Shown here: positions 4,581-63,571 of the stretch, in pieces
How the letters are laid out: each line of letters begins with the position of its first letter
Position numbering within the stretch: position 1 is the stretch's first letter
Position numbers and translations under genes: made by a program
Notes under the pieces: model-generated
What the model was told of the DNA's origin: nothing
Seen by the model: only the letters and a program-made list of their open reading frames with translations
The model's database searches: none
Assembly: GCA_036873755.1 (NCBI GenBank)
Contig: JAVTVY010025215.1
Span: 37,057-101,056, forward strand
Source: Hanleya hanleyi
Lineage: Eukaryota > Mollusca > Polyplacophora > Lepidopleurida > Hanleyidae
Reading direction: 5' to 3'
Length of the DNA: 64,000 bases

Positions 4581-4589
4581 GGACCTTAC

Positions 4590-6972: not shown

Positions 6973-7114
6973 CTTGACCAGGTTTAAAATTGTTGATTGA
7001 TTGATTGCTTCATGCTAATACATACCATGTTTTTCTGTGACATTCCAGCGGTTACTTAGCCTACTTTTGGAACTACTTCAAGACCGAGGTTCCCACCTCC
7101 ATATGTTGGTACTG

Positions 7115-7220: not shown

Positions 7221-7265
7221 CTCCCTTCCTTCCCCTCGTACCGCGGCCTTGTACACTACTGGTCT

Positions 7266-7453: not shown

Positions 7454-7489
7454 GACTTAGTAACAAATAGAAACATTGATTATAAATGT

Positions 7490-9754: not shown

Positions 9755-9772
9755 CGAAAACTCGTCAACCAG

Positions 9773-21306: not shown

Positions 21307-21829
21307 CTAGACACTTACTCCATGGAAGTTCTCAAAGAGTTCATGGTCAGTCGACAAATAGTCCGCAGTGACGTTGTGTTTTCCGGGAAGTGCTTCTATC
21401 CGAAATCTGTAAGGCTGAAGCTCCAACGCCCACCGCATGATTCGCGCATTTGTCCCATTACTTTTGTTTAGATAGATCAGCGGCCTGTGATCGGTTTCCA
21501 GCAATAACTCCTGACCTTATAAATACTGCTGTAGCTTCTGTATGGCCCACACGATGACCAGGCACTCGCGTTCTATAACGGAATATCGTCGTTTTCGGTC
21601 CAATAGCTTTCTGCTGAGATACACCACTGGAAACTTCAGTCATGCTGCTGCAGAAGCACAGCACCTATGCCGGTAGCAGATGCATCAGTTCGTAGAAGAA
21701 AAGGTTTTGTCAAGTCCGGTGTCCTGAGAATGAGACTTGTTGCTAGCAAACGCTTCAAAGCTCCGAACGAACGTTCCTGCTCAGGTCCCCACACAACCTT
21801 GTTTGGTTGACTCTTTTTGGTCAGATTAG
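21307..21829 (-). pseudogene. RNase H of the Gmr1-like element
   Basis: Minus-strand pieces read TDASATGIGAVL, VVYLSRKLLDRKRRYSVIERECL, then LLETDHRPLIYLN and LPGKHNVTADYLS, the ordered RNase H motifs of Ty3/Gypsy. At least one stop and a frameshift separate them from each other and from the RT frame ending at 21830. Confidence 0.75.
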
Positions 21830-23125: not shown

Positions 23126-23181
23126 ATATTGGTATGTGGATTTGATCTCAATGTCTGGAATATCCCTGGATCACAACTCTT

Positions 23182-24258
23182 TTAGGACCTGCATTGGCCT
23201 CTAGCAGTTCTTCCGTACAATAATTCAAATGGTGAACATCCTAGGCTGGACTGCGGAACTTCTCTGTATGCAAAGAGCAAAGGATGAATATAGCGATCCC
23301 AGTCCCTGGGCTTTTCTGCACACATTTCCTTGAGCATACTTTTCAAAGTACCATTGAATTTCTCCACTAAACCATTACATGCTGGATGGTAGGGAGTTGT
23401 GACCATCTGCCGGATAGATAACAGTCGATTGACCTCTTTCATGACATCAGACAGGAACTGTCCACCCTGGTCAGACAATATGGTTTCCGGGATTCCAAGT
23501 CGGGAGTAAAACTCTACTAATGCTTCAGCGACAGGTTCCGTTTCTATACTAGGTAAAGCAGCTGCCTCCGGATAGCGTGTTGTATAGTCCATGTAGGTCA
23601 GTATATACCGGTTACCTCTATCAGTAGCTCGAGAGATTGACTCGAAAATGTCGACGGCTACACGTTGAAAAGGCACATCTATGAGAGGAAGATTCTGTAA
23701 CGACACCTTTGTAACCCTGCCACGTGGAAAGTTTTTCTGGCAGATGACACAGGAACGACAGTGATGATTAAATTCATTCTTCAAATGAGGCCAGAAAAAG
23801 CACGAATACACTTTTGCCCTCGTCTTATTCATCCCGAGGAGTCCTCCCATGACGGATTCATGGGCCACTTTAATTACATTTATTCTCAGCCCACGTGATA
23901 CAACCAACTGTTTATTGCCATCAGTTGTGCAATATATTCTATACAACAGTCCCTTGTCGAACACAAATCGACTCTCTCCACCGTTTTTGTAAGACAGAGT
24001 TTGCCCACTGTCAGCCATACGCTTTATTTTGGCTAAAGACGGATCTTGATCTTGACACAGTTTAAACTCCTCATAGGTAACTTCGCCTATTTGCTCCGGG
24101 ACCTTAAGTGGCTGTAGACCCTTCCGATCTCGAAGTGTCTGAGCCCTTTGTTTGAACTGCGGCCGCTGTCGTTGACTCAACGTTGACATTATCTTGACCC
24201 TTCGAGTTCCAATCACCAGCAGGGTCTCCAGAATCCCTGGCTCCAGGTATATTACCAA
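23182..24258 (-). CDS. Integrase, zinc and catalytic domains (Gmr1-like element)
   Basis: A 358-residue frame. The N-terminal zinc domain reads HESVMGGLLGMNKT...CRSCVICQK; the second histidine of the usual HHCC set (GGHLG) is leucine here. The catalytic core has D (VAVDIFE), D (ILSDQGGQF) and E (NGLVEKFNGTLKSM), so DDE is complete. It is linked by a frameshift near 23150 to the integrase tail in the next frame. It would insert element cDNA; the changed zinc ligand and frameshift argue against activity. Confidence 0.85.
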   Translation of the reverse strand: MVIYLEPGILETLLVIGTRRVKIMSTLSQRQRPQFKQRAQTLRDRKGLQPLKVPEQIGEVTYEEFKLCQDQDPSLAKIKRMADSGQTLSYKNGGESRFVFDKGLLYRIYCTTDGNKQLVVSRGLRINVIKVAHESVMGGLLGMNKTRAKVYSCFFWPHLKNEFNHHCRSCVICQKNFPRGRVTKVSLQNLPLIDVPFQRVAVDIFESISRATDRGNRYILTYMDYTTRYPEAAALPSIETEPVAEALVEFYSRLGIPETILSDQGGQFLSDVMKEVNRLLSIRQMVTTPYHPACNGLVEKFNGTLKSMLKEMCAEKPRDWDRYIHPLLFAYREVPQSSLGCSPFELLYGRTARGQCRS

Positions 24259-24697
24259 TGATCAGGTCATAGAGGGGCTGTCGTAGACAGAGTGCCTGTA
24301 CCTCACCTGTGTAGTACGGTGTGTCTATCTCGACAGTAGCTAATGGCGCTTGGATAACACTTCCGTCCAGCATTTATACATCGTTGGAGTTTTCCTGTGT
24401 AGAGTCATTCACCAAGCTACGTCTAATCACAACACCTGTACACCTAGTATCTCTCAGCACTGTAACTTTATGGTTTCCCACATAACCTTGAATAACAGGC
24501 ATCCCAGAGATGTGATCCTGTTTACTCTTGCTGGCGTCATCACAGAGTGCAGAAACTATCGGCGTAGAATATTCATCTTCGTCGCGGCTATCCTTTCTCC
24601 AGGACTCGTTTTTTGATCCACGCGTGAACTGCGTCACGTGACCTACACCCTGTCTATTTTGATAATTGAACGATCCACTGCCATACCAGTTTTTCAT
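24104..24697 (-). pseudogene. Protease region (Gmr1-like element)
   Basis: The frame 24697-24374 ends with VTVLRDTRCTGVVIRRSLV, the retropepsin active site with DTG changed to DTR, which should inactivate it. After one in-frame TAA (24371-24373) the same frame continues with a second protease half including YDLIIGNIPGA, the ILGxD-like flap-side motif. Confidence 0.7.
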
Positions 24698-25616
24698 GTC
24701 ACCCCGTTTTCCTCGGTAATCCTTGGACTTATTTTCAGGACAGTCTTTTTGAAGATGCGAAATCCTATTACATATGTAACATCTCCGCGGACCACATTGT
24801 TCCTTTGACCTGGTTTGCGTATTCCAGACGCCAGAATTTCACACCCTGGCTGGCTCGTTTGAACCCACTGGCTAGCGAGGTAAAACCACATCCATGTGCC
24901 TCTAAGAAAGTATCCGCTAGATCGGCCATTTCTTTTGCACTCTTGGGTGTGCGTTCCTTAAGAAAAACATCTAAGTCTCTACCACAGGATACCACAAACT
25001 GCTCCCTTAACATGAAGTCTTTTAGGCCAACCAAACTTTTGACAGTGTCTCCTAACTCCATTCATCTGGACAAATATGCTTCCATACGAACTAGAAACTG
25101 TCCTGCCGTTTCACCCACCTCTGGCTTGCACTCCCTGAACTTGAGACGATATCCTTCTTCCGTTAACTGATACCGTTTTAGTAATGCAGCCTTCCAAATT
25201 GCATAATCATTTGCTTCAGTTTCTGCTTAGCTCGAATACACTACTAGGGCCTTGCCAGATAACAGAGCGGCCAAGTTTGTGCTCCAAGTCCGCCTGTTCC
25301 ATCCTTGACTGCTAGCAAAACGTTCAAATCTTTGAATGTAGGCATCCAATTCATCTTTCCTATCATCAAAGGAAGGCAACTTTGGAGATTTTGCCCTCGA
25401 GCCAACAACATCTACCTCAACTTCACCTCCTACATTGCCTTGACGTTTTATCTTTTCTAATTCACTCTCTTGCTCTATTCTTTCTTGTTTTTCTTTTTCT
25501 AGATCTCTTTCCTTATATCTCTAGCAATTTTCTGTTGGTCAGAAACCCAGTTCATAAGTTCAGCGTCTACTAAACCTAGCTTTGATGCCACATTGACAAG
25601 CGCCGCTACATCCATG
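24694..25616 (-). pseudogene. Gag (Gmr1-like element)
   Basis: From the Met at 25616 (MDVAALVNVASKLG) the protein runs through an acidic coiled-coil stretch, a capsid core (PSFDDRKDELDAYIQRFERF, LLSGKALVVYS, QLTEEGYRLKFRECKPEVGE, FLVRMEAYLSR) and a CCHC knuckle (CYICNRISHLQKDC, about 24745). Two in-frame stops (about 25230 and 25060) and frame changes at each end show decay. Confidence 0.75.
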
Positions 25617-36333: not shown

Positions 36334-36666
36334 ATTCTGAGATACAGAAATGTTACATTTGAGTTTATTTCCGGACAGATAACGAGATTAAAAGATGCAC
36401 AAGTCAGAAGAACTGCATTTCGGTTGGTCTAATCCATTGACACATTTATTTGGACAGAACTTTTTCATCGGTAAATGAAAATGATCGCATTGCTTCAGTG
36501 GATAGATGAAAATGTACCACAGAGAAATAAAGAGTTTGGACTGATGTTTGTCCTTCAAACAAGTTCGTGCACAAGACGCTTCCGTTCAGTGTCCCCTCTT
36601 TCCGTGCATGGATTCTCAAGATAATGTCTCGTACTACGAAAGCAAACACGATTTTTCTTTCGATGT

Positions 36667-37906
36667 ATAACTACCCAATTTCTTCGTGTACCGCGTCAAG
36701 TAGATATACCAGCAAGTCGGCCGCTTCTTCAAGTGAAATAGGTTTCTCTTTCCCTCCCTCTTCCATGAAGATCCGAAACAATTCTCTGTAATTTGAGTCG
36801 CCAGGGTATTTGAAAGAATGTTCAAATCATCCGTGTTGAAAGGCATTACACATGAACGTCCTCCACACATCTGTGGAAGGTAGTACATTACGTCCGGTCT
36901 GCCAAACGTTGGGTCATTCCTTGTTTTTCTGATGTAGTGAGTGTTCCACAGTTTTAGGCATGTTTGAAGTTCTTGTCGAAGTAGATCAATGTAACAGAAA
37001 AGAACACACTCTATGTCCAATTTCTCTGCCGTGTTGATTATTCCAAAAGTAACAATGTCCCTGAAATGTTCCAGCCACGTGTTCATTCCCAACATACCGA
37101 ATTTGCTCCACCAGCTCTCTATCCGTTGGTTAGCAGTTGATTTTCCATACAAAAACGAAGTCTGCAAGCGCCCACGACTGTCATTGTTTTCTGTTCTCAT
37201 CAGAGACTGTAGAAGCTGAACGTTGCAATTTTCGGTACCATTGTCAGCTCGGACAATGGTGGGTAAACCATTTCGAGCTTTTACACTATCGACGAAATAA
37301 TTGCAAATGACGAAGGGGTCCTTGTTCGTTGACGATACCTCAAGCCATATGAGCTTCCTAGAATATCCATCGATACATCCGTGTACGCACAAACCATATG
37401 GTTTAAGCTTATCCCAACCGTCAGTATGCCAGAGATAGTCTGGACCTTGCGCATGGTAGGAACGTCTGCGCAATCTGTGTTGTCTGCGGCGTGCAACACC
37501 TACTGGGTCTAGATTTGAAAGTATAAATTTCACAGTTTCTCTGGAAACAACGAGGTGATGTTTCTTGGTTATTCTGTCTTGCATGGAACGATAACCCAAG
37601 TCTTTACCGCTGCTATGTAACTCTGTTTCAACTGCGTCAATAACTAACCTAAGATCAGAATGTTTTTTTCTTCTCCATAAGTTTCTTCCCTTCAAAATTC
37701 GCTTAAGATGCCTTAAACTGAGAGAAAACCCATTCTACCATTCTACCCATTCCATGCAGGAATGCAAGTATCTCCTCGTATGAAAATCCATGATGGAAGA
37801 AGGATTCGATTGTTTGGTCTCTATCAGCATCTACGCCAAGAGGTAAATATGACGGTGATCCGAATGCCCCGTGTTGCTGAATGAACAAAGCAGCTATGGT
37901 TGTCAC
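36667..37906 (-). pseudogene. Intronless integrase-core (rve, DDE) protein with two frameshifts
   Basis: Reading minus, an N-terminal helical part (ESFFHHGFSYEEILAFL) is followed by a frameshift at about 37730, caused by a 17-bp local duplication. The main frame has LKRILKGRNLWRRKK, ELHSSGKDLGYRSM and the integrase fold: D in YLWHTDGWDKLKPYG, GCIDGYSRKLIWLEV, D in VRADNGTENCNVQLL, and E in NQRIESWWSKFG. After HYIRKTRNDPTFGRPDVMYYLPQ a second frameshift near 36820 leads to a tail ending LLVYLLDAVHEEIG and a stop at 36667. It is a member of a family of rve-type transposase-like proteins scattered in animal genomes, and a relative of the spliced gene at 43427-54130. Confidence 0.8.
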
Positions 37907-43426: not shown

Positions 43427-43629
43427 TCACTGTAGCTTAGACATAAGCCATCCATACAATTGCAGGGCGGCGTCCTTCTCACCAGGTTTACTCTTCCCAT
43501 GCCGTAACAGGAGCGTATCGCAGATGGTTTCAAAGTCTACTTCACAGCCAGTATTCCGTGGCTCTTCACACATGTTTTTTATGACTGCTATGTCTGTTTT
43601 ACTGACCTGCGTTTTGTAATCCATCGTAC
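43427..43629 (-). CDS. Integrase-like gene, last exon
   Basis: 203 nt from ATTTTGTAG to the TGA at 43427-43429. Reads TMDYKTQVSKTDIAVIKNMC, DTLLLRHGKSKPGEKDAALQ and LYGWLMSKLQ. The ending corresponds to LLVYLLDAVHEEIG of the intronless copy. Confidence 0.75.
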
Positions 43630-46600
43630 CTACAAAATATATAAACATACTAGTTTAGTCAAATCCCTACACCACATAGATAGTTTGTTTGTCACCACAC
43701 AGATATTATGCAGTCATATTACCAAACGAAACATTGTCAATAAACGATGATCGGCCATGACAATTTTTGCCCGTGCACATTCTTAAATATGAATTTATTT
43801 GAGTTAGAAATTTGGGCTTCAGTAGGACAGCTGCTAGTGTACACTAAATTAACCACTAAACAAATGGTTTATCTTGGCTGCGATTCAGTGCCTGCGATTA
43901 AGCACTGAATTCTTTAGATTCTTGTCGCAAACTATAGAAACCGGCGTCCAATTCCGCTTTATGTTGTGTTTTAGTTATAGTTAGTTAGTACAGTTAGTTA
44001 CAGTTAGAACATTCAGTGTAGAAATACTGGATTCAACATATCTGGAGACTGGCAGAGTAAGAGATGGTAACCCATTATTATAAAGCCCGGGGATAACTGC
44101 ACAGTGTATCCACACAACACGAATATTAGCTTGCGTCCTAATTTGACACGAACACACATCAAAGGCGTGCTAATTTCAGAGACATTGACACGTGAATGTT
44201 ATTGTCCTGACGTTTGCCATTAACAGTCGATACGTAGACAGAGAGATCCAAATACTGGATGGTTGTGTATAGTTAATGGGTGATACTGTGCAGTAACAAT
44301 CAGATCCGTACTATACAGTTAATTACCGCGCATTACTGCACAATCAAGAACGCTACTGTTAAGTTGGTGCTTGGTAACTTTCAATAACTGATTGGTAGCC
44401 TACTGTACAGTGACAGTTCAGTTCTTCAAAGGAACCTTTCTGAAACAACGTTTACCTGTATCATATTGTCCTGCTTATGAATTTGTATAAATTGTGAAGT
44501 GTATTTAATTTTAATAAACCCAAATCAAGCAGAAAACTGTAGAAGGAATTGCGTTGACACGCTTAAGCTAACGGACGGACGGATAGTGGTATAATATAAT
44601 ACCAGAGGTCAAAAGGTTAGAATAAACTCTCTATCACTTCCCAGGCTGAAAGACTTCAGTTCGACTCTAGAAAACGGACCTCTCTATATCTTAGTATAAG
44701 ACTACACAATGTTGTGATTCACTACCACACGCGGCTCTTTACGTGAGACGAACTAAACCAAACTGCAAACCGACAAATTTTCGAAAACGGAAACTGAGCC
44801 CTGGGTCGGACACTTTCCAATCGTCCGGGCTGCCCACGTGGTCATCGTTGTTGAATTGTGTCCAGTGCAGAACACAGAGTGGCCACTGTCACCAATTTTT
44901 CAGGAATATATTGGAACATCCATAGTGTGCAGAATTCATGAACAGTTAGCCATAACATTATCCACTGGTAGAGCAACCAATTCGTTATTAATGGATATTT
45001 TTAACATGAACATCGTGTGATTCGGGCAAGTTAAGCCTGATATACGTCCCGTCAAAATTGACGGGCGTATAAAAGGGCAAGATGACACACCATACCAAAC
45101 TCTGCATAATATACGAAGGATTCCTGGACGTAGATATATCCAAACTTCCATATCCCAACTTATATTGTGAACACAGTGTGGTAAATACCGTGAAGTTCCG
45201 GAAGAAAGTACAGGAGGTCTGGTTTCCCAGATACAGCGACTTCGGCAGAACGTCTTGTAGTCAGTCTATGTTGATTCCATTCCATGGAAATGCGGTCCAG
45301 TTCTGTTTGCAGCAGTTCCGTGAAGCAGTATCTCAAGCATTCCCTATATGACAGGATACAAAGGGGAAACAGTTGTTGACAAATGGCAAATGTTATCCGA
45401 AAACATCGACAATGTCCCTGATTCTTATCCTGGGAAAACATTGTAATCACAGGAGACCTGAACGATATCTCCTGAGTGCTTTCAAATTTCACATACGTAT
45501 CATAATATCTCAACCAACTAATCGGACTCAACCAACTAATAACTGATCCAAGTTGACCCGTTTCGAATCCTTCTTTAGATCCAATGATTTGTAATATGGT
45601 TCAACGACTCTGCGCTAGCGGCATTCTAGGACCTTTTTTGTAGCGATCATTCTCCACTTTTTATCTCACATAGCTCCAAACGCTTAATTTGGAATTAAGG
45701 GAAAGCCGACTGAGACAAATTTAGATGGCTGCTTGCAAACGCCAAATGGGAAGACCTGTCGGATGACATTAACATGGATATTTGGTGTGACCGTGTGACA
45801 TCCGTCAGCTAAAGAATCAATACCTAACAAATACATTTACATTCATACAGGCGATAAACCAAGGATGACAAACAAAATAAAACAAGAGATGACAATCCTT
45901 GTCAAATTTTTAAGCAATCTAGAATTTCCAAGTATGTAAATAATATCAAACGTTTTAAAAACTAAAGAAATTCTTTCACTGCCATTGTTCGCTCTACTAA
46001 GGGGGAGGGCTCAAAATTAAAATAGCCCAGAAAAGTTGGATTGATCTAGTTAATGGAAACGCAGTAAATCATTCTCAAAGGACTCGAATAGTAATTTTAA
46101 TGATGCACTACCTCTAATGAAAGCGGACGGTTCTTTTGCGTACCAATGTTGCGAGAAAGCCGAAATCTTAAACGAGTTTTGTTTGCCAGTATTACTGGTA
46201 TCAAAAAGTGTAACACTCAAATGCCACCTCTGTCGATATATACGGAAAATACTTTAGATACGAGTACATTATCTCGAATCTATAGACAGTCCAAAACTCT
46301 TGGAACCGGCGTCTTAATCACTCATTGAAAGCATCAACTTATCCAACAGAATGGAAAGTTGCTAAATGTGACACGATGTATGAAAAAGGTGAACGAAATT
46401 TGCCTTCCAACTATCTTCAGGGATCATTATTAAGAGGGTCGTATGGATGGCCGAGAGGGGCCATCGCTTCATTCTTTTCTAATCTAACGCGATGGAGCTA
46501 TGGAGCTATGCAATGCGCGATGGAGCTATGTCATGGAGCATCACTGCACATGCTCGTTACTGTTCACAGAGAACAAATTGACAAGGGGCTTCTTTTAAAA

Positions 46601-49600
46601 CGGAACACGTCACATATATAGACTCGCTCCGTGACATAAGATATATTTATTTGCACACTTATGCCACGCGGGCGAAAGGCAATACAAACAACAACAAACA
46701 TACATGATTATACATGTGTTATGCTAAATTTTAGGTGTTAAGGGCACGCTAATCTATAAACAGACAGAAAAAAAAACAAGACAATTTTTTTTTTAAAATA
46801 ATAACCCATACTAGCCAGAGGCCGACTTGCCGAATATTTCACACAGGACAACAGAACATGAATCTCAGTCTCAACCACGTTACATGTGGAACACAGACGC
46901 TTCTCCAGTGAGGTATCTAAATACCAACCGCTTTCGAGTTTCAATTTATGTGCGCCAATTCTTAATTTTATAAGTGCTGATCGAAATTTTCGATTAGGAA
47001 TAGCCGACACCGTTGTTTCACGATCCAACCTGATTTTGAACATACGGTATGTGCTCAACTTCGACGAATTCGAGACGATTTGCGACCAGATGTCATAAAA
47101 TCTGTGATAAAGTTTCCCTTTAAAGGTCAACCCAAACGCTCTGAGATCAAAAATATAAAAAAATAGTCCTTTCGATTCTGAAAATAATGATATTTTTTTC
47201 ATAATTTTGTACAGTCTGGTTGGCGAGATATTGCCGTTTGAAAGGTGAAAATCGCTCTCCTGTCAATTCCAGCTGTGACGTCACGGAGGGAAGCCGTCTT
47301 GTATTCTCTATGTTAAAGCCGTATACCACAGTCGTAAGTAGCTGCTTATTTCTGGAGATTTTCGGAGTATCGGGACATCATTTGTTAAATATGCCGCGAC
47401 GTTGTGTAGTGGGAGGTTGCAGTTTTACTACAGATGACGGTGTTGGTATTCATTTGTGGCCTAAAGACGAGAAAATCGCTGCAAATTGGACGAAATTTGT
47501 ACGCAACACGAGAGTGTGGAAAGAGGGCCTGAGCCAGTACTCGTATAATTTGCTCGGCACATTTTGACAGAAATTAGACATCATTCGAGGACATCTACAG
47601 CGTAGCAGTTGAATTCGGGTACAAACCAAAACTAAAGAGAACAGCTATTCCAACTATCAAACCTAAGAACAATCAGAATGTGACGGCAAAGAAATCGGAC
47701 AAGGAGAATCTATCACGGACATCGGCTGAACGAACCTAGCCTGCAAGCGACGCCTCGAGCAGGGAGACGGCTGTACATGCCCTGCTCGCTCTCGCGTGGC
47801 ATTTGTTGCTTGAGCACCTACAGGTTAGACTGGATGAGTCTCTGTTTCATATATACTATTTAATAATACTAAAATGATCTTTCATAAATATATATACGCT
47901 TGATAAGTAAATAAATAAAAAACACCAATTGGAGTGAATGGCTGTAAATACAGAAGTGATAATAATGCTTTCATAATCCCTTGACATTTGAGATTGTGGG
48001 AATATCATTCGATTTCAATTGAATTGAGGTAATTTGTCGAAAATTGAGCAAATGTGAATGCCGATCCACTCACCATGGCTTACTTTTCGCCATGAATGTC
48101 CAAAGTATTTTTTATCAAACTATATAATTCTGAAATTGGTATTTCATGGGGATTATGGGAAAACAAACAAATTCAAATCGGACGTATATCAGTAGAGTTA
48201 TCAACAGTTTACTGTCCATACTGCCGAATCCCGGAGTTTATCCCCTCGAAAAGGCTGCCTCGGTCAGTAACAACAATAACAACACAGATGTGCTCGTTCT
48301 TTACATCACAGAATCGTTCTACATTCAATACAGTTTGAAATATATATGGACATTTGCTCTTATAGATGACGATAATAAGGTTTCCAGTCAAGTTGCATAC
48401 CAATCACTATTCAACAAACGACCTCTCCGAATGCTGTCGTCGAGTTCCACGTTGTCAGAGTGGTTGTCACTGTCAGAATCGGAGCCGTACGGCTCAAATT
48501 GATAGGGCTGAATTCCGCGGTTGGTCTGCAAACAACTGTTAATTTGCCCGTCATCATCCTCCTCTATGTCTATTTCATCTTCTTGGCGAAAAATATTTCC
48601 ATCTAAGCAGCTGATATCGCTCGAATCGACATCTGAACCGGAGCTCTGACTGCACTCGCTTTCCATGTTATCCGCTGTTTTTTCTCAGGCAACTTCCCTG
48701 CGTGACGTCATCAAGCCAGCTGTGAAAGTGTGAAAAAGCCCACTTTGCTCCCATATTACGTGTGTTTCTGATCAGATTAGAATTTTTTCAATATTTAAGT
48801 GAAGTATGAACTATGATTTTTAAGGATTTTTAGACCAAAAAAAATTCCGTTTGGGTTGACCTTTAATGAATTTAATTGTGAACTTCTGCTTTTTTACATT
48901 CCTGGTTTCCCGAAGATGCTCACTACTTGTGTTTGACAGCAATTTTTTAACGGAAGTAATCGAATTATCGCATTTAGTTGTCCGGTGTACTTCCACCTGT
49001 TCCATATAGCTCTTAACTAAGGAGGACGGGTCTGAGGACTGAATGAGGAACAGAAAGTTAATACTGTTGATTTGTGCATGAAATTTTACAGGCACTCTTC
49101 CCAATTCTTCTTATACTGCCGTATTCATTGTTTTCGAATGAGCGCCAAGAATGAATGCCCCGTCCCAGGCATGGTAGGATTAAACACAGGTTCCTCTCTG
49201 CTAAAGATGGGCGCATTCCGAATGGGTCCCATAATGGCCGATGATGCAAACCGAAAGCTCAACATAAAACACCTACGAAATAAGAGTGGTTGTTGAAAAT
49301 ATTACATTTGCAGGTGATTGTCTGTCGCCAATAATCCCTCAGACTCCAGATCTTTCATCAAATTTATCCAATAGTCGCCTCCACTTTGCCGCAGTGTCAA
49401 CCACCATCTTTCAATTCTCTTAAAAGAAAGTTCGAACGAATAAGAATACCAAAGCCGCACATAATGTGAAATATTCAGGTAAAGCAACTCGCTATATTTT
49501 CTTCAAAGTTTTTTTATAGCGATAATAGATCAGATTATGTACCCAAAGATCACCAGATGGGTATTAACAAAATACAAATTAATGCCGCATAATATAGCAC

Positions 49601-49608
49601 ATCCTGTG

Positions 49609-49643
<35 letters not shown>

Positions 49644-52600
49644 ACAATTAAAAGAGCGGTCCTGAAATGTCCCTTTGTCTGTGACAGCTGAAATGTCCGT
49701 ATGTTTATCTGTCAGAGTGCATGTTCTCTGACGGGGTGAGTGGGTGACTGGGGCAATGGTGAAAGACGGACTGGGAAGGGTGCGGGGGGGGGGGGAGAAC
49801 GCTGGGGGTAATAATGGATCAACTCCACATGTGTGAAGAGTAGTATAGAAAGGGCATATCAGATCGTATGTCACAGCTAACATCTGCCCCAGCTTCACAA
49901 GTGCAGGTAAATCCTAAATCATCTCAGAGGGTTTACCTGGATACTTTTGGTGATTCGAAAGAGTTCTTCAGTCGATGTCTCTATTTTACAATCAAATGCA
50001 TTTCATCCCCCACGTTAGTTTTGATTAACATGTGGGTATCCCCAGCCTGCGATTTTTGTTTTGACTTCCGATGTCGATTTCACCCTGACATGAAAAGTAG
50101 TTTGGCCAGCAATTAAATTCAACCTGTCACATCTCATACATCGCAGCGGATTGGCGTAATCAGCTAGCGTAGCACATTCACTGATTGATTGAAATTAAGC
50201 CCCTTGATCTATTTATATCCAGAACTGGTGTTGGTTAACCAACCGAGCCAGTGTATCGATCCTAACAAATTCACCGATACAGTGGCTCGCTAGGATGCAT
50301 ACGCCCATGCGTACAGGTCCTCTGGGTAGGGGTGTCTGGGGCAATGGTGGAAGACGGGCTGGAGGATGGGAGCTGGGGGAAAGAAGAGCGGTCCCTGATT
50401 GCTTGCTATTAAAAGAGCTGGCCTGAAATGTCCGTACGTCTGTCACAGCGCACATCTGCATTGAGCAAGACTCATATAGCTTCCTTATCCCCAATTTAAC
50501 ATGGTGGTGTTGGTGAGCTTGCCTTATTGATTACACACCAATATTAGCTCTCTCCTTCAACCCAGTTTATAATTCATAAATATTAACTCCTACCAATATT
50601 ACCTTTACAGTGACCGACACTGTAAACTAATTATTTACGTGCGTTATTACTTCAATGATAATTCTTCCACGGGAATTTGCTAGGATCTATAATTCAGGGT
50701 TGTGAGTGCTAGCTTCTCCTATGCCCCTTTCAGCCCCCAATAGTGGTACGTTATGGTGCTCTAGATTATACATGTAGTAAGATATATCGTTGATATTACG
50801 GTGGCTCGTAAGGGCCATCTTATTTGTTCGAGTATGGGATAATTTATATGTTGAAAGTAAATAAGTTGCATGGAAATGAAATGCATGAATTACTTGATTT
50901 CGGTGTGAGCTTCCATATATTACACTTCTGTCAGCGGACATATTGTCGGGGTGATCCCATCGGAACGCCTTCTGAATATTCTCAATGAATACGTTTTCTG
51001 TTCCTCTGTCCATCCTAATACACCGCGGAACCGCTTCATAACAGAACAAAGTGAAATGAATTTGTTTTCTATTCCATATGAGCAAAACAATAAACATTCC
51101 GCTACGGAAGCCTCTATAGAGGAGGTCAAACTGATATTTTAAAATAGTTTCTTGTAAATTACTTAATATACCCAAATACTATGAAAAGTAATAAAACTAG
51201 AGTAAACTTTCTCTCAACTAAGACTGGAAATATACATGTATATCACTAGAACACGAGTTAATAAATTAATAAACTAAAGTTTAACTCCATGGATTCTTCA
51301 TGAAAGCAAGCAGACTCAAATGGAATATTTATGGTCTCAATACTCAACAAGACCGCAATATAAGATGTGCTTCAAGGTTTCATCCCCCGACTGAAATCAC
51401 AAGGTTTAAACGACACAAAGCTGGATAGGATTACAGATATATGACTATAAGATTATCCAGCCTACACAAACTATGATAACAAGCTTCAGTAAACCATTAT
51501 CTATATTATCGGTTACTATCAATCTGGCATGTACCGATATCACGTTTAAATACCTTCTATGCTGTCTACGAAATCCATGAAATAGGATGCTACGATATAG
51601 GGATTGTTGTTGCTCCTCGCAACTCGAAGCCACAAAATCCTCCTGGAGAAGCTGGAATAGTAATGCAAGAGTACTGCCTTGGTAATCGGTAATTGGCAAA
51701 TTTCAAATGTCGTTAAGGAAACCCCTCACCCCGTTCCTACTACTCAATTCTTCAGTGACATTTCACTCAGGGGTGGATATTTGTGCCACTCAAAATTGGT
51801 TTAATAAGTCACTCACTTTTGAACGAAATGTGCTCGAATTTAAGTGAAAATCACTATAGTTGAGAATATTTGCAGATTTGAGCATCAGATGAATATTTAT
51901 TGAAGTGATACCACACCTCATCCCACATGCCTATTTGAATTGTTTATTCCGGCTTATTCCAGTCGGCAAAAGTTATTCGAAATAGTACTCGAGAACTACT
52001 GTTCATACTCTGGCCTATTCTCTACACCAAGAGCGCGCAATATGCAAATTGGAACGCCCTCTTTTGCTAATATCTTACCCACAAATTGCTCCGTGAATAG
52101 CGAATCCAAAGGGCTTTAGCTTGTCGTACCCATCTAAGTGAACCAAATAGTTTGGGCCCTTGTTGCTGTATTGCCTCCTTGAAAATCGTTGTTCTCTTCT
52201 CAGAGACACCCTTGTTGGGTCGACAATTCGGAGAATTTCCATGACCGTGTCCCTACAGAGTGAGCCAATACATGTGTCGCTTAAATATTCAAAATTGTAA
52301 AGCAAACCAATGTGAAGTTATGGACAGACTGCTCGGCATATGAAGCATATTGTCAAGATCGATATGAGCAGAATTTCACATGTGTGCTTTTATTCATAAG
52401 CACAGGTGACATTCTCGCACTATCGGGATTGTAACCTCCTGTACTTGTAATAACCTTTGATTCCCCGGCATATCTGGAGGAAAGCTATTGAGACTTCTGG
52501 ATACAACGATGCTGCATTTTAATAGAAAGACAGTGATCAAATACAATTCACCCAGGCAGGAATGGAAAAGGATAAGCTTCAGGTCAAATTAACCCAACTC

Positions 52601-54130
52601 TCTGTCCGCTTGATACATGGCTGTAAATACTTCGGGATACGACACGTATAATGGTTAAGTGAACAGGTAAAGAAAACGAAAACGGATAACAAACCTCGGA
52701 ACATTCAAACCGTAGTGGGAGCTCAGTCGTCTGGCCATACTTCTATACCCTAGGCAACTGCCACTTCCAGTTAGCTCATGCTGCAAAAGAACAAACGACA
52801 TTTCTGGTGACCGATGTGGTTCAATAATATAATTAGGATTCCGTGATAAAATTAATTGAACAAATTAATAAAAGAAAGCAATTCTCCCAAACGACAATAA
52901 CTACCAACAGCGCAGCTGTATACGACAATCTTTCTGTCTTGAAAACATACAATCTCTGTAAACGAGGATGGAATTAATCTGCCCGTGATCTGATCTGTGG
53001 ACTATAGGAGATAGGTCACGATATAGTTTGCGTACACTTCGCCATCCATAAGACGACTTGTGGCTCGTGTGTCCCCATTACTGCGTATCGATATCAAAAA
53101 CTTTACCGTATACACTGCGGTCGGCATCCGGCGGTCAGAAATATCGCATACTGGACACTGTACAACTCCACACAGAAAGACAACATTACCAATATATTGA
53201 AAATGTGAATGTCTACAAATTCCGTAACAGTTTGAAAGGTTTACAGAACTAAACATTTCACCAAATTTCGCCGAAAGAAGTTTGAGCTTTGTCCAACATG
53301 GCGGAGGGCATGGCGACATATGAACCCAGGGTCAGTCTTACCGCTTATAGATGACTCAGTTAGTTACAATATCTCAAACGGCAGTACACCTGAAACCCCG
53401 AATATTCCCTCAGCTGATATAAACTGTGCATGATATGGCGCTTCCTTTTAAAATATTAGTATAACTATCCGAGTGACTTAGTTCCTAATGCAAATAGCAA
53501 ATAATGCAAATAAAGGTCGAAGTACCTCAATGATTCGGACGACCAGATGGTAATTCAAGTGCTCTTGGCGACGGCGGAGTCCAAGTCTTTGTAGAATTCG
53601 CTTGATGGTTCGAGTGCTGCAAGTTATAAAGGGAGTTCGATTCAACGAACATCATAACGCATGCAAGAAGACATGCGAACTCTCTCATTTTCCTTCAGGC
53701 TTCGATACACCCCAAATACCCCCGATAACCAGATAGAGTTAATCTAATAGATCGGATTTAGCCCCCCCCCCCCCCCACCCCCCATCCCCAATCTCCAAAC
53801 AGGATGATAGGCCATATGCCTTGTCTATCATCTCTGTCCGATACCACTTACTATCTGTAGTCCTGTACAAAAACCTCATCTCACAATAATTTTCAAACTA
53901 AATCAGTATAAATTTATTTCGTTTCATACTGTTCATGTAATGGGTTCTTAATTCGCACGAGTAATGGACAAATTTAGCTAAAGTGTTGACAAAACAAGAG
54001 TAGACCTGCATTGAAGTTTCGGGCAAAACTCACGCCTACCTGATTATGGTGTTGTGATTCCAGCACAGAATTTGGCAAAGCTCCGTGTTGGTGTATCCAG
54101 CATAGAAGTACTGCCGGATGACGTCATCAT
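43427..54130 (-). CDS. Eight-exon integrase-core (rve, DDE) gene
   Basis: Eight minus-strand exons (54130-54040, 53616-53526, 52780-52695, 52252-52079, 51113-50894, 49418-49306, 45343-45189, 43629-43427) join in frame through seven GT-AG introns to give at least 376 residues and a stop, with no internal stop or frameshift. The order is an N-terminal HTH-like part (YFYAGYTNTEL, RTIKRILQRLGLRRR), a GSGSCLGYRSM segment, and an integrase fold with D129 (HLDGYDKLKPFG), D182 (RMDRGTEN) and E223 (NQRIERWW), numbered from the start of the first exon seen. It closes with ECLRYCF...WNQHR, PDLLYFLPELHG and LQLYGWLMSKLQ. A short upstream first exon with the start codon is probably missing. It matches the intronless copy at 36667-37906 throughout. 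A host-adopted transposase is likely; function unknown. Confidence 0.8.
45189..45343 (-). CDS. Integrase-like gene, seventh exon
   Basis: 155 nt between CATATAG and GTATTT. Reads ECLRYCFTELLQTELDRISM, EWNQHRLTTRRSAEVAVSGK and PDLLYFLPELH, aligning with ECVLFCYIDLLRQELQ and KLWNTHYIRKTR of the intronless copy. Confidence 0.8.
46020..46430 (+). pseudogene. LINE ORF2 fragment (EN-RT linker and start of RT)
   Basis: Plus-strand pieces read PLMKADGSFAYQCCEKAEIL and NEFC, typical of the stretch before RT in CR1/Jockey-type LINEs, and STYPTEWKVAKCDTMYEKGE followed by NLPSNYLQ, matching the WKxAxxxPxxKKGxxxxxxNYRPIS start of RT. Broken frames; lies in the sixth intron of the integrase-like gene in antisense orientation. 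Confidence 0.65.
47391..47739 (+). pseudogene. THAP-domain protein start, frameshifted
   Basis: From the ATG at 47391: MPRRCVVGGCSFTTDDGVGI (the THAP Cys-x(4)-Cys pair), W in NWTKFVRNTRVW, then a frameshift before ICSAHFD (the third Cys and His of the zinc set), a TAG, and KPKLKRTAIPTI (AVPT-like end). All four zinc ligands are still encoded. The frame ends at a TAG at 47737. THAP domains bind DNA at transposon ends. Confidence 0.8.
48388..48666 (-). pseudogene. Acidic protein start, possibly a P2RX7_C-type domain protein
   Basis: The 92-residue minus-strand frame starts MESECSQSSGSDVDSSDISC and is strongly acidic. It then reads GIQPYQFEPYGSDSDSD and RLLNSDWYAT before a stop. IxPYxFEP followed by NTDWCxCGxC is how many invertebrate proteins with a P2X7 cytoplasmic-type domain begin, and here the sequence stops just where the cysteines should start. 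Convergent with the THAP frame. The family call is tentative. Confidence 0.4.
49306..49418 (-). CDS. Integrase-like gene, sixth exon (catalytic Glu)
   Basis: 113 nt between CTTTTAAG and GTAATA. Begins exactly with RIERWWLTLRQSGGDYWINL, so the NQ-RIE-WW motif is rebuilt across the intron, then LESEGLLATDNHLQ. Confidence 0.85.
49609..49643. repeat. (TATC)n microsatellite
   Basis: About nine uninterrupted TATC/TCTA units. Confidence 0.95.
49640..50470. repeat. Two related copies of a short repeat in an intron
   Basis: AAAAGAGCGGTCCTGAAATGTCC with CTGGGGCAATGGTGAAAGACGG at 49645-49790 resembles GGGGCAATGGTGGAAGACGG and TATTAAAAGAGCTGGCCTGAAATGTCCGTACG (split here) at 50335-50445, with the parts in swapped order. 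It lies in the fifth intron of the integrase-like gene. Confidence 0.45.
50894..51113 (-). CDS. Integrase-like gene, fifth exon (second catalytic Asp)
   Basis: 220 nt between CTCTATAG and GTAATT. Begins GFRSGMFIVLLIWNRKQ, more divergent from the family than the rest, then EAVPRCIRMDRGTENVFIEN, IQKAFRWDH and SVIYGSSHRNQ. It contains the second catalytic aspartate. Confidence 0.8.
52079..52252 (-). CDS. Integrase-like gene, fourth exon (first catalytic Asp)
   Basis: 174 nt between CTCTGTAG and GTAAGA. Reads DTVMEILRIVDPTRVSLRRE, RRQYSNKGPNYLVHLDGYDK and LKPFGFAIHGAIC. It holds the first catalytic aspartate; the usual WH before it is VH here. Confidence 0.85.
52695..52780 (-). CDS. Integrase-like gene, third exon
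   Basis: 86 nt between TTTTGCAG and GTTTGT. Reads HELTGSGSCLGYRSMARRLS and SHYGLNVP, aligning with ELHSSGKDLGYRSMQDRI of the intronless copy; arginine 89 is split by the next intron. Confidence 0.8.
53526..53616 (-). CDS. Integrase-like gene, second exon
   Basis: 91 nt between ACTTGCAG and GTACTT. Completes serine 30 and reads TRTIKRILQRLGLRRRQEHL to RIIE, aligning with LRHLKRILKGRNLWRRKK of the intronless copy. Confidence 0.8.
53762..53783. repeat. Poly-C tract
   Basis: A run of C broken by one A, in the first intron of the integrase-like gene. It may be an assembly-sensitive site. Confidence 0.9.
54040..54130 (-). CDS. Integrase-like gene, first exon detected
   Basis: 91 nt between ATTTGCAG and GTAGGC. 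Reads DDVIRQYFYAGYTNTELCQI and continues to HNTIIS at the junction. Two leading bases belong to a codon begun in an upstream exon I did not find. Confidence 0.75.
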
Positions 54131-54300
54131 CTGCAAATGCATAACGCATAACACATTTTATACGTGAAACGAAATACGGCGGAACAAAAGGGAATGTTGC
54201 ATTCATTCTTTCTCTTCCTTTTCATGGAATGCTGATAGGAAACGGTGAAATGATTAACTGTAATACACTTATATATATATAAAACACACCAAAGTGAAAA

Positions 54301-54477
54301 CATTGTGTACCGATCAGTAGGGTACCATAGCGGTGAGTACGTCGTCACCATAATGATACCACAGTGGTACCGGCGCAGACACACCAACACGACGGTTCGC
54401 GCCGGTGCCGCTATGGTATACCATTACGGCGAAGGACGTTGTCGCTGCTGTGGTACCCTACCGATCGGTACACAATG
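54301..54477. repeat. Foldback of about 177 bp upstream of the integrase-like gene
   Basis: CATTGTGTACCGATCAGTAG at the left mirrors CTACCGATCGGTACACAATG at the right; the inner GTACCATAGCGG.GA also has an inverted partner. It lies 170 bp upstream of the first detected exon, in the area where the missing first exon or promoter should be. Confidence 0.75.
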
Positions 54478-54479
54478 TG

Positions 54480-55106
54480 TTCGCCGTCGGGGAAACTCTA
54501 TGCGTGTACTTTCCTGGTCTTCTGAATTACTCAAGGTAATATTTTCAAGGTCAAAAATCTTCACATTGAGGCACTTTACCCTATGAATTGTCCTTTCAGA
54601 CAGAGACATTGGGGCGAATATATATCTGATCGATCGACCCTTTCACTGTCTCTTCGGTCCACGAATACGAACGGGTATAGCTGCCGCCTGACTGATCATA
54701 CATCACAACTATAAACATCATAAACGTCACGAAGAGCATTCAAATTAAAATCCATACAGGAGTAGTAGGAAAAGATGTTTGCGTACGAACAGTCACATGA
54801 CACCACAGACCGGTAATCTGGCTGCATCATCAGACACTCTTGCACATGCACTGATGAGCTGCGGTTTAGTAGAACGAGCTTTTATTGAACCCACCCACTG
54901 CCCTCAGGGGCATGTTCCCACCGCAGGGGATCTGAACCGACCCTCATACGCCGCGAATTAACAGGTGAAACCCACATGAGCCGACCCTTAAGAAGTGAAT
55001 CCCACATGAGCCGACCCTCATACGCCACGGATTTCACCCCATGGCTCATTCACCCCCATGGGTTCATTCAACCCCATGGGTTCATTCATCCCCATGGGTT
55101 AGTTTA
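54480..55106. other. Spacer leading into the satellite arrays
   Basis: No gene. At 55025-55100 a short tandem repeat of CCCCATGGGTTCATTCA (four copies) precedes the first array. Confidence 0.5.
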
Positions 55107-55880: not shown

Positions 55881-57184
55881 CCCGCTGTGCAGTGAGTAAA
55901 GCGGAGGAGGAGGAGGAGTAGGACACGCCACGGATTATTCTAGGTAGATTGGAAGGCAAATAGGCCTGTGGAAAAGAGGACGCCACTCTGCATCTTATAT
56001 TCATTTCACTTACACTCATCTGGATTTAAAGTACGTCGGGTCGAGATATAATTATTCCTCGGCATCACGGCTGTCTTCTACAATTGAAGAAAAATAATTC
56101 CATAACTGAAATCAGTGAAAGCATATGTTAACCCTGCCTTTCTATGTGAAGCATAGGGTGTACAGCAGACTGTCATTTTGAGCCTGTATTTGCATAATCA
56201 GCAGTACAAGGAATGATGGTCAATGAAAATGGCAGTCATGTAGGGTCTTAGGGCAAACCGTTTATCGTTTCGTATTCTAGACACTCCGACAGACATTTGG
56301 GGTGACCTACACCATCAATACAAACGACTTGAGCATTGACTGTTCATATTGCTGCGCATTAACTTTTGGTATTTTACCTTATTATGCTCGGTCTTGTTCC
56401 GGCCAACATCCGACCATTTGGATACATTTCTCAGCTAACTTAAGCTCTACCTTGCAAATTTGACTAACATTAATAACTATATCTCACATTGACAATTTGA
56501 CTTAAGTTGATAACTTTCGTAACAGTTAATATGTGTTGCTAATCGGAAATATTACCCCGTCTTGGTCTTGGGGAAGGCGTCCCATGATACCTTGGTCTGC
56601 AGCTTCGGAACGAAAAAAAAACAGAGGTAACTTTCTGACTTTTTAGCAAATGTTATTGCATTTTGAGTCATTTTGCACAATCAGGGATGCAAAACATCAT
56701 AGATAAATTCAAAATGGCAACCATGTGGTGTCATCGAAAAACCGTTTAAATTCTATGGCTTTAGCGCTGATTGCTGTGTGTGTGTCTGTGTGTGATATGA
56801 CGATGGTCTTCAGATTATGAACGCGAAAATGGTTTAATGGACGGCGGCTGTACAACGGACGACGGATCAGACGCGTACATATCTGTGGTTTTCTTGCGTA
56901 ATGACGTCAGTAGTGTATAACGAGCAACTAAAGTAAACTTTCCCCCGGATGTAAAAATGACGTCACAATTGAGGGTGTGGCGCCATCTCTACACTATGGA
57001 TGCAAGGGAGACAACTCGGGCATTGGGGGGTTATTGGGGGGGTGTGCATTGACAAAAAAAAAAAAAAAAAAGTTCCGGCAAAAAAAAAAAAAAAAAAATG
57101 TATTCATGCGCGGTGATGCGGTTTGGCCGCGGTTTTGGCGGTGATTCGGTCTCGGGAAAAAGCTTCCGCGGAGAAAAAGTAGTC
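55881..57184. other. Non-coding spacer
   Basis: No gene. A GTGTGTGTCTGTGTGTG tract at 56778 and two A-runs at 57053-57100 separated by GTTCCGGC lie just before array 2. Confidence 0.5.
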
Positions 57185-58165
57185 CCTAGATAAAATGGTC
57201 CGATGGGGTCGAGTGAGGTATCAAAGTGAAGCTTAGGTGAAGGGGCATCTAATGGGTTGGGTGTGGGGTTGACATATCGGCCTTCTGCGCATGCGCGGCG
57301 GCCGAAGGGTATGAAAATAGCCTTTTTGGAGCTATGGGAGCCCCTAGTTGACCGATGGGGTCGAGTGAGGTATCAAATTGAAGGTTAGGTGAAGGGGCAT
57401 CTGATGGGCTGGGCGCGGGGTTGAACTATCGGCATTCTGCGCATGCGCGGAGGCCCAAGGGTATGAAAATAGCCTTTTTGGAGCTAGGAGATTGACTACT
57501 GGTCTAGTGGGGTCGAGTGAGGTATCGATGTGAAGCATTCGTGAAGGGGCATCTGATGGGCTGGGTGTGGGGTTGAAATATCGGCATTCTGCGCATGCGC
57601 GGTGGCCCAAGGGTATGGAAATAGCGGTTTTGGAGCTAGGGGAGTCCCTAATGGGCCAATGGAGTCGTATGAGGTATCAAAGTGAAGCATTCGTGAAGGG
57701 GCATCTGATGGACTGGGCGTGGGGTTGAAATATCGGCATTCTGCGCATGCGCGGTGACCCAAGGGTATGGAAATAGACGTTTTGGAGCTAGGGGAGCCCC
57801 TAATGGTCCAATGGGGTCGAGTGAGGTATCAAAGTGAAGCATTCGTGAAGGGGCATCTGATGGACTGGGTGTGGGGTTGACATATCGGCCTTCTGCGCAT
57901 GCGCGGTGGCCCAAGGGCATGAAAATAGCCTTTTTGGAGCTAGGGGAGCCCCTAATGGTCCAATGGGATCGAGTGAGGTATCAAAGTGAAGCATTCATGA
58001 AGGGGCATCTGATGGACTGGGTGTGGGGTTGAATTAGGGTCATTCTGCGCATGCGCGGTGGCCCAAGGGTATGAAAATAGACGTTTTGGCATCTAGGGGA
58101 GCCCCTAATGGTCGAATGGGGTCGAGTGAGGTATCAACGTGAAGCCTAGGTGAAGGGGTATTTGA
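57185..58165. repeat. Tandem array 2: 152-bp unit, about 6.4 copies
   Basis: Period 152 bp. Each unit has GGGGTCGAGTGAGGTATCAA, GTGAAGGGGCATCTGATGG, TTCTGCGCATGCGCGG and GAAAATAGCCTTTTTGGAGC. Six copies of GCGCATGCGC (about 57289, 57439, 57589, 57743, 57893 and 58046) are all intact while surrounding bases vary. Confidence 0.9.
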
Positions 58166-61460: not shown

Positions 61461-62383
61461 TCACCCGATGGGTTGGTCGGTCAGCTTGGTCACGAAGAAC
61501 GTAACATTGGTCACACTATCCACTGTCCACTTGGTGTTGGGCGTTGCAACCGGGCCCATTCCAAGGGATCCACGGTGTTCAGTTTCTCCAGCATCGTCTC
61601 TAGCGACACTCGGTTAATGATGGTAAACGGTTGGTCAAATACCTGGATGTTACTGCTCGGGTAAAAGTATCGGACTTGGACTGTCTCTTTATGCTGCAGC
61701 ACATAACCAAACGCCAGATTCAATTTGAAGGCCGTAGTTTGATCTTTGAAGATGGCTTCTACGTAGCTACGTAGACGGGCGAGGTCGGTCAGTCGGAAAT
61801 TGTAGATATCTTGAATAGGGCGATGACGGTGGAAACAGTGCCGTATCATGGACCAATGGCGCCGATAGATGTCACTCACTGGATGGGCGCCCTGTAAGAG
61901 ATCGCTAGGAACATTTATGGGCTCGTCCAGAAAATGTTCGATGTTGTCAGGCGTATGACTCGAAACCGTAACGGTGGGGTCCGGCTGGATATCCAGGCCC
62001 TCCTGGACCGTGGGTATAGGCAGGCTCTTCGTCATCGCATCACCAGTGGCGTTCGTCTCTCCGGGTTCATCTTCACTGGGTCTGACCTTCCGCGGCCCCT
62101 CTTTAGTGGAAAGTTGTCGCCCAAACCGTAGAGACGGGGCATGCATCAAACGTTGGTGCTGTCTAAACCGACTGGGTCGTTTGAAGAGTCGACCACAATC
62201 ATTACATAGTACCGTCGCACCCGCGTGGAGTACCCTCTCATGACGCAGTAAATGATCCTTCCGATTGAATGACCGTGCGCAGATTATACAAGTATACCGG
62301 GCATCGTTGTGGATGGAGGCCTCGTGGCGTCGTAACTTATCTAGACGAGTAAACAGCTTCTGGCAAGTTGTGCAAGTGAACAT
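61461..62383 (-). CDS. Three-finger C2H2 protein with conserved C-terminal domain (copy 1)
   Basis: Intact from the ATG at 62383 for 290 residues. C2H2 fingers at about 2-25 (FTCTTCQKLFTRLDKLRRH), 30-53 (YTCIICARSFNRKDHLLRH) and 58-80 (CNDCGRLFKRPSRFRQH); an acidic, Thr/Pro-rich linker; then from about 150 a conserved domain (SDIYRRHWSMIRHCFHRHRP, IFKDQTTAFKLNLAFGYVLQ, VRYFYPSSNIQVFDQPFTII). A one-base deletion near 61540 relative to copy 2 ends the frame at 61511 instead of the PIG-stop at 61461, removing about 20 residues. Probably a DNA-binding protein. I do not recognise the C-terminal domain; similar proteins are associated with mobile DNA in my memory, which is weak evidence. Confidence 0.75.
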
Positions 62384-62429
62384 CTTGGTGGTTGACAGAG
62401 TGTCTGATGAAACGTCCAGGCCGCTTCCC

Positions 62430-62438
62430 TTTTATAGC
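62430..62438 (-). promoter_or_regulatory. TATA box of zinc-finger copy 1
   Basis: CTATAAAAG on the minus strand, about 50 bases upstream of the ATG at 62383, in a block conserved with copy 2 (GTGCTATAAAAGGGAAGCGG). Confidence 0.7.
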
Positions 62439-62602: not shown

Positions 62603-63517
62603 TCAGTGCATGAGTGACGCATTCAGCCGATGGGAGTGGTCGGTCAGCTTGGTAACGAAAAACGTAACATTGGTCACACTCTCCACTGTCCACTTGGTGT
62701 TGGGGCGTTGTTGTTGGGCCCATTCCAAGGGATCCACGGTGTCCAGTTTCTCCAGCATCGTCTCTAGCGACACTCGGTTAATGATGGTAAACGGTTGGTC
62801 AAATACCCGGATGTTACTGCTCGGGTAAAAATATCGGACTTGGACTGTCTCTTTATGCTGCAGCACATAACCAAACGCCAGATTCAATTTGAAGGCCGTA
62901 GTTTGATCTTTGAAGATGGCTTCTACGTAGCTACGTAGACGGGCGAGGTCGGTCAGTCGGAAATTGTAGATATCTTGAATAGGGCGATGACGGTAGAAAC
63001 AGTGCCGGATCATGGGCCAATGGCGCCGATAAATGTCACTCACTGGATGGTCTTCGTGTAACAGATCGCTGGGAACATTTATGGCTTCGTCCACGAAGTG
63101 TACTTTGCCCTCCACGTCGTACAAAATCTGGCCCAAGGTCTTGTCGTCGGAATTTGACTGTTGAATTAGGGCGACATCATCATCGGCCCTCGTGCGATGG
63201 GTGGGAGTCCCCCCTGTTTCGATATTGATGCCTACGGGCTCTTCTATCTGCAAACGTGGCTGCGGAACAGGGTGTCGTGTGCGTTGGTGTCGCAGCAACT
63301 GACTGGTCAGTTTGAAAAGCCGACCACATTCTTCGCATGGACGCTTGGGTACTTCATGGCGTGCACGTGTGTGGCGCTGTAAATGATCCGGGCGCTGAAA
63401 CGACAGTGTACATATCGTACAGTTATACCGGGCGGTTCCTTCGTGCTTGGTAGCCTCATGGCGGCGCAAGTCGTGCAGACGAGTGAATGATTTCGAGCAC
63501 GTAGTACAAGTGAACAT
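62603..63517 (-). CDS. Three-finger C2H2 protein with conserved C-terminal domain (copy 2)
   Basis: 304 residues from the ATG at 63517. Fingers read FTCTTCSKSFTRLHDLRRH, YNCTICTLSFQRPDHLQRH and CEECGRLFKLTSQLLRH. The linker differs in length and sequence from copy 1. From IYRRHWPMIRHCFYRHRPIQ to LETMLEKLDTVDPLEWA the protein and DNA are nearly identical to copy 1. The tail keeps TKWTVESVTNVTFFVTKLTD, then runs past the PIG-stop position by a small indel and adds a few residues. The promoter, 5' leader and orientation are the same as copy 1, about 1.1 kb away, so this is a tandem duplicate. Confidence 0.8.
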   Translation of the reverse strand: MFTCTTCSKSFTRLHDLRRHEATKHEGTARYNCTICTLSFQRPDHLQRHTRARHEVPKRPCEECGRLFKLTSQLLRHQRTRHPVPQPRLQIEEPVGINIETGGTPTHRTRADDDVALIQQSNSDDKTLGQILYDVEGKVHFVDEAINVPSDLLHEDHPVSDIYRRHWPMIRHCFYRHRPIQDIYNFRLTDLARLRSYVEAIFKDQTTAFKLNLAFGYVLQHKETVQVRYFYPSSNIRVFDQPFTIINRVSLETMLEKLDTVDPLEWAQQQRPNTKWTVESVTNVTFFVTKLTDHSHRLNASLMH

Positions 63518-63562
63518 CTTGGTGGTTGACAGAGTGTCTGATGAAACGGCCAGACCGCTTCC

Positions 63563-63571
63563 CTTTTATAG
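63563..63571 (-). promoter_or_regulatory. TATA box of zinc-finger copy 2
   Basis: CTATAAAAG on the minus strand, about 50 bases before the ATG at 63517; same context as for copy 1. Confidence 0.7.

Follow-up and report, generated by a model that had tools for sequence, protein, structure and literature searches.

A gene that reads as the integrase core of a transposase and is divided by many introns raises the question of whether it still belongs to a mobile element or has become a resident of its host. One such gene lies on the minus strand of a 64,000-nucleotide stretch of the genome of the polyplacophoran mollusc Hanleya hanleyi, referred to here as the window (C20572:37057-101056; GenBank contig JAVTVY010025215.1). 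The gene runs from 54131 to 43427, spans 10.7 kb, and has nine coding exons and eight introns. The gene is real. We hold with moderate confidence that it is a host-resident member of a molluscan, perhaps wider lophotrochozoan, protein family, which would have derived long ago from the transposase of an IS3EU/GingerRoot-type DNA transposon.

When the minus-strand segments are spliced, a single open frame extends from exon 1 (54131) to a TGA at 43427, and the product of the joined exons is a 383-residue integrase-core protein. All eight introns are GT-AG. The coding segments are as follows.

54040..54131, minus strand: exon 1 (first seen), N-terminal helix-turn-helix-like (HTH-like) start
53526..53616, minus strand: exon 2, STRTIKRIL...
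52695..52780, minus strand: exon 3, HELTGSGSCLGYRSM..., weak HTH_21 match under its cut-off
52079..52252, minus strand: exon 4, first catalytic D (HLDGYDKLK); boundaries common to eight other lineages of the genome (our grouping)
51554..51651, minus strand: exon 5, GFSRRILWL...
50894..51033, minus strand: exon 6, second catalytic D (MDRGTEN)
49306..49418, minus strand: exon 7, catalytic E (RIERWW), with a split ATG at its end
45189..45343, minus strand: exon 8, ECLRYCF...
43427..43629, minus strand: exon 9, C-terminal domain and TGA stop

A first-pass annotation had proposed eight exons and seven introns here. Its in-phase open frame with AG and GT bounds stands, but its count falls one short on both. 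Two of the junctions it described are seen as such: NQ is joined to RIERWW, and HLQ-M-ECLRYCF is rebuilt over the split ATG. The exon-5 acceptor at 51651 also brings back the family motif GFSRR. At the 5' end, an in-frame ATG stands directly before exon 1 in the window. In the near-identical contig C11442 this codon is ATA, an indel shifts the frame upstream of exon 1, and the AG before exon 1 is retained, which suggests that an earlier exon probably exists. Three molluscan homologues have a GYTSL-like motif; no upstream exon encoding it was found in the window up to 60.5 kb.

The predicted integrase core was recovered by a Pfam search with the joined protein (rva_4, E 1.7e-30). Matches to HTH families were weak and under their cut-offs, and no zinc-binding integrase family matched. 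The catalytic triad is D135, D194 and E235, numbered from the R of RYAFA, with the spacing D-58-D-40-E. The three acidic residues had earlier been noted at 129, 182 and 223; all are present, but counted from the first D of exon 1 they fall at 130, 189 and 230, so that the earlier positions were short by 1-7 residues. A protein search with the joined protein returned 989 relatives, and the best 120 of them (P0001-P0120) were used for the alignment and for the counts that follow. The triad is DDE in 118 of the 120, including all 16 homologues of the molluscan clade described below. The joined protein agrees at 82 of the 84 columns in which at least 90% of the sequences have one residue. At the eight junctions it shows no gap except for two columns filled by 1% of the 120 homologues. 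A structural model of homologue P0002 (mean predicted local distance difference test score 78.7) combines helices at the N terminus with a core of mixed strands and helices. Foldseek matched it to eight solved structures at E <=0.001, all of them transposases of the MuA and TnsB type (E from 2e-5 to 2.4e-4), with template-modelling scores of only 0.19-0.30 over the whole chain.

The relatives place the gene in a family that extends well beyond this species. Identity to the query is 67% for a Haliotis rubra protein aligned along 79% of it, and 46-51% for proteins from limpet, scallop, clam, oyster, nemertean and brachiopod, whose matches extend along 88-100% of its length. A tree of 53 rows contains an 18-row molluscan clade (100/98), in which the window gene and the paralogue on contig C35435 are paired with two Haliotis proteins. 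The source genome contributed 14 intronless rows (13 loci and the window's own intronless relative), and all of them lie outside this clade. The tree left out locus L014, which has no usable frame, as well as L019-L022 and L024-L034. Molluscan subclades mix gastropods and bivalves, as expected of old paralogues. The closest counterparts are molluscan genes for "uncharacterized protein" (Haliotis LOC124292120 and LOC124285060, Pecten, Mercenaria, Ostrea, Crassostrea), which belong to the same protein family and the same clade, have no functional name in the sources, and are known here as proteins. Two of them are partial gene models broken at exon junctions of the window gene. In Haliotis model P0074 the breaks are at the 2|3 junction (start) and the 7|8 junction (end), and its extra residues outside both junctions resemble translated intron; Mercenaria model P0073 stops at the 7|8 junction. 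In the sea-star isoform P0047, the match begins at the 1|2 junction. These three come from 17 homologues with incomplete matches that were checked, and the other 14 were uninformative or broken elsewhere. Taken together, the tree and the three broken models suggest that the intron-bearing lineage is probably older than the gastropod-bivalve split.

Homes outside the eukaryotes were considered and set aside. In viral contigs, a first scan yielded a single fragment at 45% and a later one no relatives among 76 pattern matches. Among bacterial and archaeal genomes, two relatives turned up in metagenome bins, at 29% and 32%; from their long frames we judged them by eye to be probable eukaryotic contamination. 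As a separate observation, a crude hydropathy cut-off marks the N terminus of 66 of the 120 homologues as strongly hydrophobic and signal-peptide-like, and an LPxYxP motif occurs in 32 of the 120. The signal-peptide-like N terminus is absent from all members of the molluscan clade that have an N terminus, and two intronless copies of the source genome (L005, L006) start with a resembling sequence. A transposase would not be expected to carry a secretory signal.

The history of the exon structure can be followed within the genome itself, which comprises 2.48 Gb in 52,793 contigs. The C35435 paralogue is 77% identical over exons 3-8, and all seven junctions checked by eye, E2|E3 (acceptor only) through E8|E9, have the same position and phase; one of the shared junctions has a GC donor. 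Exons 1-2 were sought on this contig and not found. On C24420, a paralogue 66% identical over 288 codons has six of six junctions in place, the first being E3|E4 (acceptor only) and the last E8|E9. It is free of stops in the exon pieces examined, and the stretch retrieved did not yield exon 3. A decayed copy on C5227, about 50% identical, has kept all seven junctions examined, E2|E3 being represented by its acceptor only. A query with exon 4 gave 121 matches in the genome, and 20 short-open-frame loci were sampled from them, some short or partial matches lying outside the sample. The acceptor was found at the exact position in 13 of these 20 loci, with the donor as well in 12 of the 13, and neither was found in the remaining seven. 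Grouping the exon-4 peptides, we count nine diverged lineages with common exon-4 boundaries, including window/C11442 and C35435; in exon 4, the other lineages show 49-81% identity to C35435. Exon 8 as a query gave 42 matches, with short frames on many contigs that were also found with exon 4. Relative to the window gene, synonymous sites are saturated: the proportion of synonymous differences (pS) is 0.865 for C35435 and 0.90 for C24420. The corresponding non-synonymous divergence (dN) is only 0.16 and 0.27, which indicates that the protein sequence is conserved under purifying selection. Judged by the junctions common to these loci, the exon structure is old.

Two further contigs are much closer. 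C11442 holds every exon, its intron-containing blocks align with the window at 93-98%, and the alignment runs beyond both gene ends, which is the pattern of an allelic or recently duplicated copy of the window gene. Insertions set the two apart: in C11442, about 2 kb in intron 1 and about 5 kb in intron 5; in the window, about 2 kb in intron 7. At the insertions in introns 1 and 5 of C11442 (L035-L037), the alignments on either side share 6 and 7 bases, like target duplications. Over exons 1-8 and the first part of exon 9, the window gene and C11442 differ by six synonymous and three non-synonymous changes (dN/dS 0.14). C21319 covers exons 8-9 and is 99.4-99.7% identical to C11442.

The same genome also holds intronless relatives in large numbers, one of them inside the window.

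36634..37734, minus strand: REL1, an intronless broken relative, 5.7 kb from the gene

This copy had been announced as an intronless, frameshifted relative about 6 kb away, and its distance and broken frame agree with that description. It is 36% identical to the window protein and has an in-frame stop, and pieces of both protein ends lie in another frame (by eye); it matches 73 of the 84 conserved columns. In the tree it groups with the intronless copies of the genome, apart from the window gene. We rejected the idea that it is a retrocopy of the window gene because it is only 36% identical and clusters with the other intronless copies. One loose TA..TA pair surrounds it (shuffle mean 0.18). 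The joined protein finds at least 107 matches in the genome, many of them intronless with long open frames, and many others show a common pattern of one internal TAG and one internal TAA. On contig C4013 (33169-36700), two intronless copies (L007, L011) lie in opposite orientation about 1.4 kb apart.

Two intronless families look recently mobile. Copies of family A (L018-L023) and family B (L024, L025, L027, L029-L034) are mostly 94-99.7% alike, repeat-only alignments being excluded from these figures. One sharp TACGG or CCGTA end with differing flanks was seen in all six family-A and all eight family-B loci shown; the family-B comparison has nine rows, two of them from one locus. The stretches fetched cover one end per locus, and any 6-bp duplications would be completed outside them. 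In PMC10045372, IS3EU elements are described with TA..TA termini and usually 6-bp duplications, and PMC12730594 gives TAYGG..CCRTA termini for IS3EU in rust fungi. By sequence, the ends of families A and B are this published signature. The transposase frame of family B has TAG and TAA stops in all nine loci, with the same count in eight. From this pattern, the copies apparently spread after the gene broke, and presumably moved in trans.

Around the window gene no such ends were found. A search for a TAYGG..CCRTA pair with a 6-bp duplication gave none in flanks of 20 kb and 9.8 kb (21 left and 17 right candidate sites), and TA..TA repeats with a 6-bp duplication were absent from the 4-kb flanks; both searches required exact 6-bp duplications, and a larger or decayed element could have escaped them. 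Among the 25 longest of 53 inverted-repeat pairs at 42-56 kb, none brackets the gene, and a transposon of that form was rejected. A generic repeat pair with a 4-bp duplication around the gene was likewise dismissed as transposon ends (shuffle mean 0.35).

Residence in the host had been argued in the first-pass annotation partly from the introns, on the ground that selfish copies normally lack them. That argument is weak, because some Ginger1 transposases carry 1-4 introns, three of which persist in the vertebrate genes Gin-1 and Gin-2, according to PMC2836005; introns alone are thus no proof of domestication. Its conclusion of long residence is better carried by the exon structure shared at synonymous-saturated loci, purifying selection, a molluscan clade without intronless copies, and the transposon ends not found. 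Domestication, which had been put forward as a perhaps, is likely on these sequence patterns: the missing ends in the flanks searched and the purifying selection argue for it, and the many same-intron copies argue against it. Such copies spread through the genome had been named as a sign against the proposal, and they do exist, but they are mostly old and well diverged.

Several observations, besides the intron-bearing Ginger1 transposases, weigh against host residence. Same-intron copies lie on many contigs, with some sets near-identical and some decaying. C5227 and C49618 are 95-96% identical over about 4 kb, and have stop codons in exon 7 and exon 5, respectively. C22408 has lost the donor of exon 4. 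Exon 9 is damaged repeatedly: a one-base length difference shifts the frame in C11442, a 1.5-kb insertion bordered by 15 shared bases interrupts it in C21319, and in C35435 it is divided between two frames. These exon 9 defects may reflect either sequencing error or relaxed constraint. Exon and intron divergence between the window and C11442 differs only weakly (9/1152 versus 106/7410, p = 0.097), and a low dN would also follow from selection at the level of transposition. A CA-rich repeat pair around the gene with a 15/20 match and a 5-bp duplication did not occur in 20 shuffles; we dismissed it as transposon ends.

The chief rival to host residence is a slowly amplifying DNA transposon whose transposase gene has eight introns, with the copies being old insertions whose ends have decayed. 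We regard this as unlikely, though it deserves serious weight. Besides the Ginger1 precedent, it would account for the same introns at many loci, the near-identical sets on several contigs and the intact DDE triad. Against it, IS3EU-type ends were not found in the flanks searched, and C11442 aligns past both gene ends, so that no movement occurred between these two copies. Moreover, the wide exon-4 divergence from C35435 contrasts with the 94-99.7% over the element in most comparisons within the IS3EU-ended families, and the mixing of gastropods and bivalves in molluscan subclades fits old paralogues. A gene or pseudogene that was formerly functional, was recently disabled and is drifting now is improbable. 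The exon 9 frame shift in C11442 and insertion in C21319, the unsettled start codon of the window gene, and the stops or lost splice site of some paralogues point that way; however, the window copy is open through nine exons with intact splice sites, its changes relative to C11442 are mostly synonymous, and it matches 82 of 84 conserved columns. That unrelated open stretches were joined by eye, for which the short exons and the other repeats within introns are the only pretext and no supporting evidence was found, is refuted by full-length homology and by junctions conserved at independent loci, and its probability is negligible.

If the gene is a host resident, its protein would still bind DNA through N-terminal helical, HTH-like domains, and would have kept a folded, possibly active RNase-H-like strand-transfer core, while being unable to move its own gene. 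Its most likely role, proposed with low confidence, would be that of a DNA-binding recombinase-like factor acting on related transposon ends or on a host site; action on transposon ends would mean repressing or cross-acting on the IS3EU elements of the genome. Such families gain and lose copies, and decayed members occur here. A bolder version is doubtful but worth stating: an ancient intron-rich molluscan, perhaps lophotrochozoan, family from an IS3EU-type transposase may have kept a complete catalytic site since before the gastropod-bivalve split, and may serve the host as an active recombinase for cutting or joining DNA, such as in curbing or processing related mobile elements of the same genome.

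Known systems offer partial parallels. IS3EU/GingerRoot DNA transposons resemble the window protein in their integrase-like DDE core, and the window protein has no match to a zinc-binding (retroviral HHCC/H2C2) domain; the window gene differs from them in its eight introns, its 10.7-kb length and the lack of IS3EU-type ends in the flanks searched. The connection with IS3EU is drawn from how the intronless copies terminate, from Pfam rva_4 and from the tree, and the name is taken from PMC10045372 and PMC12730594, not from a Repbase match. Gin-1 and Gin-2, which derive from Ginger1, are also host genes from an integrase-like transposase with intron positions common to their members, but they belong to another superfamily (a Gypsy-like integrase with a zinc finger) and are found in vertebrates, perhaps tunicates. 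The three introns conserved throughout these genes are present in a Ginger1 transposon as well, all as given in PMC2836005; no such source transposon is known for the window gene. Transposon-derived transcription factors of lophotrochozoans are a further case of transposase-derived genes expanded in molluscs; named there are ZBED, CENPB, FHY3, HTH-Psq and THAP factors, and the term IS3EU is absent from that text (PMC10027918).

A literature search by title returned nothing on the window gene, which does not establish its absence from print. To our knowledge, few host genes come from integrase-like cut-and-paste transposases. If host residence is true, the window gene would represent a mollusc-wide domesticated family from a superfamily other than that of Gin-1/Gin-2, with its catalytic site intact. 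One genome would then combine dead intronless relatives, mobile-looking families of near-identical copies, and resident genes with introns, and with the three kinds side by side, both domestication and action on mobile relatives become testable.

Other features of the window include two elements close to or within the gene.

47120..48866, strand not assigned: DNA-transposon-like element inserted in intron 7; its ends have TTAA and perfect inverted repeats of 19 bp (TTAAAGGTCAACCCAAACG)
54296..54482, strand not assigned: inverted-repeat element resembling a miniature inverted-repeat transposable element, just upstream of exon 1

The interval 47117-49156 has no aligned counterpart in C11442. The intron 7 element contains acidic and putatively THAP-like frames, none with a Pfam match. 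Retroelement pieces lie at 461-11311 (reverse transcriptase with a tyrosine-recombinase-like frame) and 21636-25520 (reverse transcriptase/integrase) by Pfam, and are presumably DIRS-like and Gypsy-like, respectively. Two similar adjacent C2H2 zinc-finger frames with a long common C-terminal part occupy 61511-62431 and 62603-63565 on the minus strand. At 57031-57980, open frames overlap with an offset of about 152 bp, suggesting a tandem repeat.

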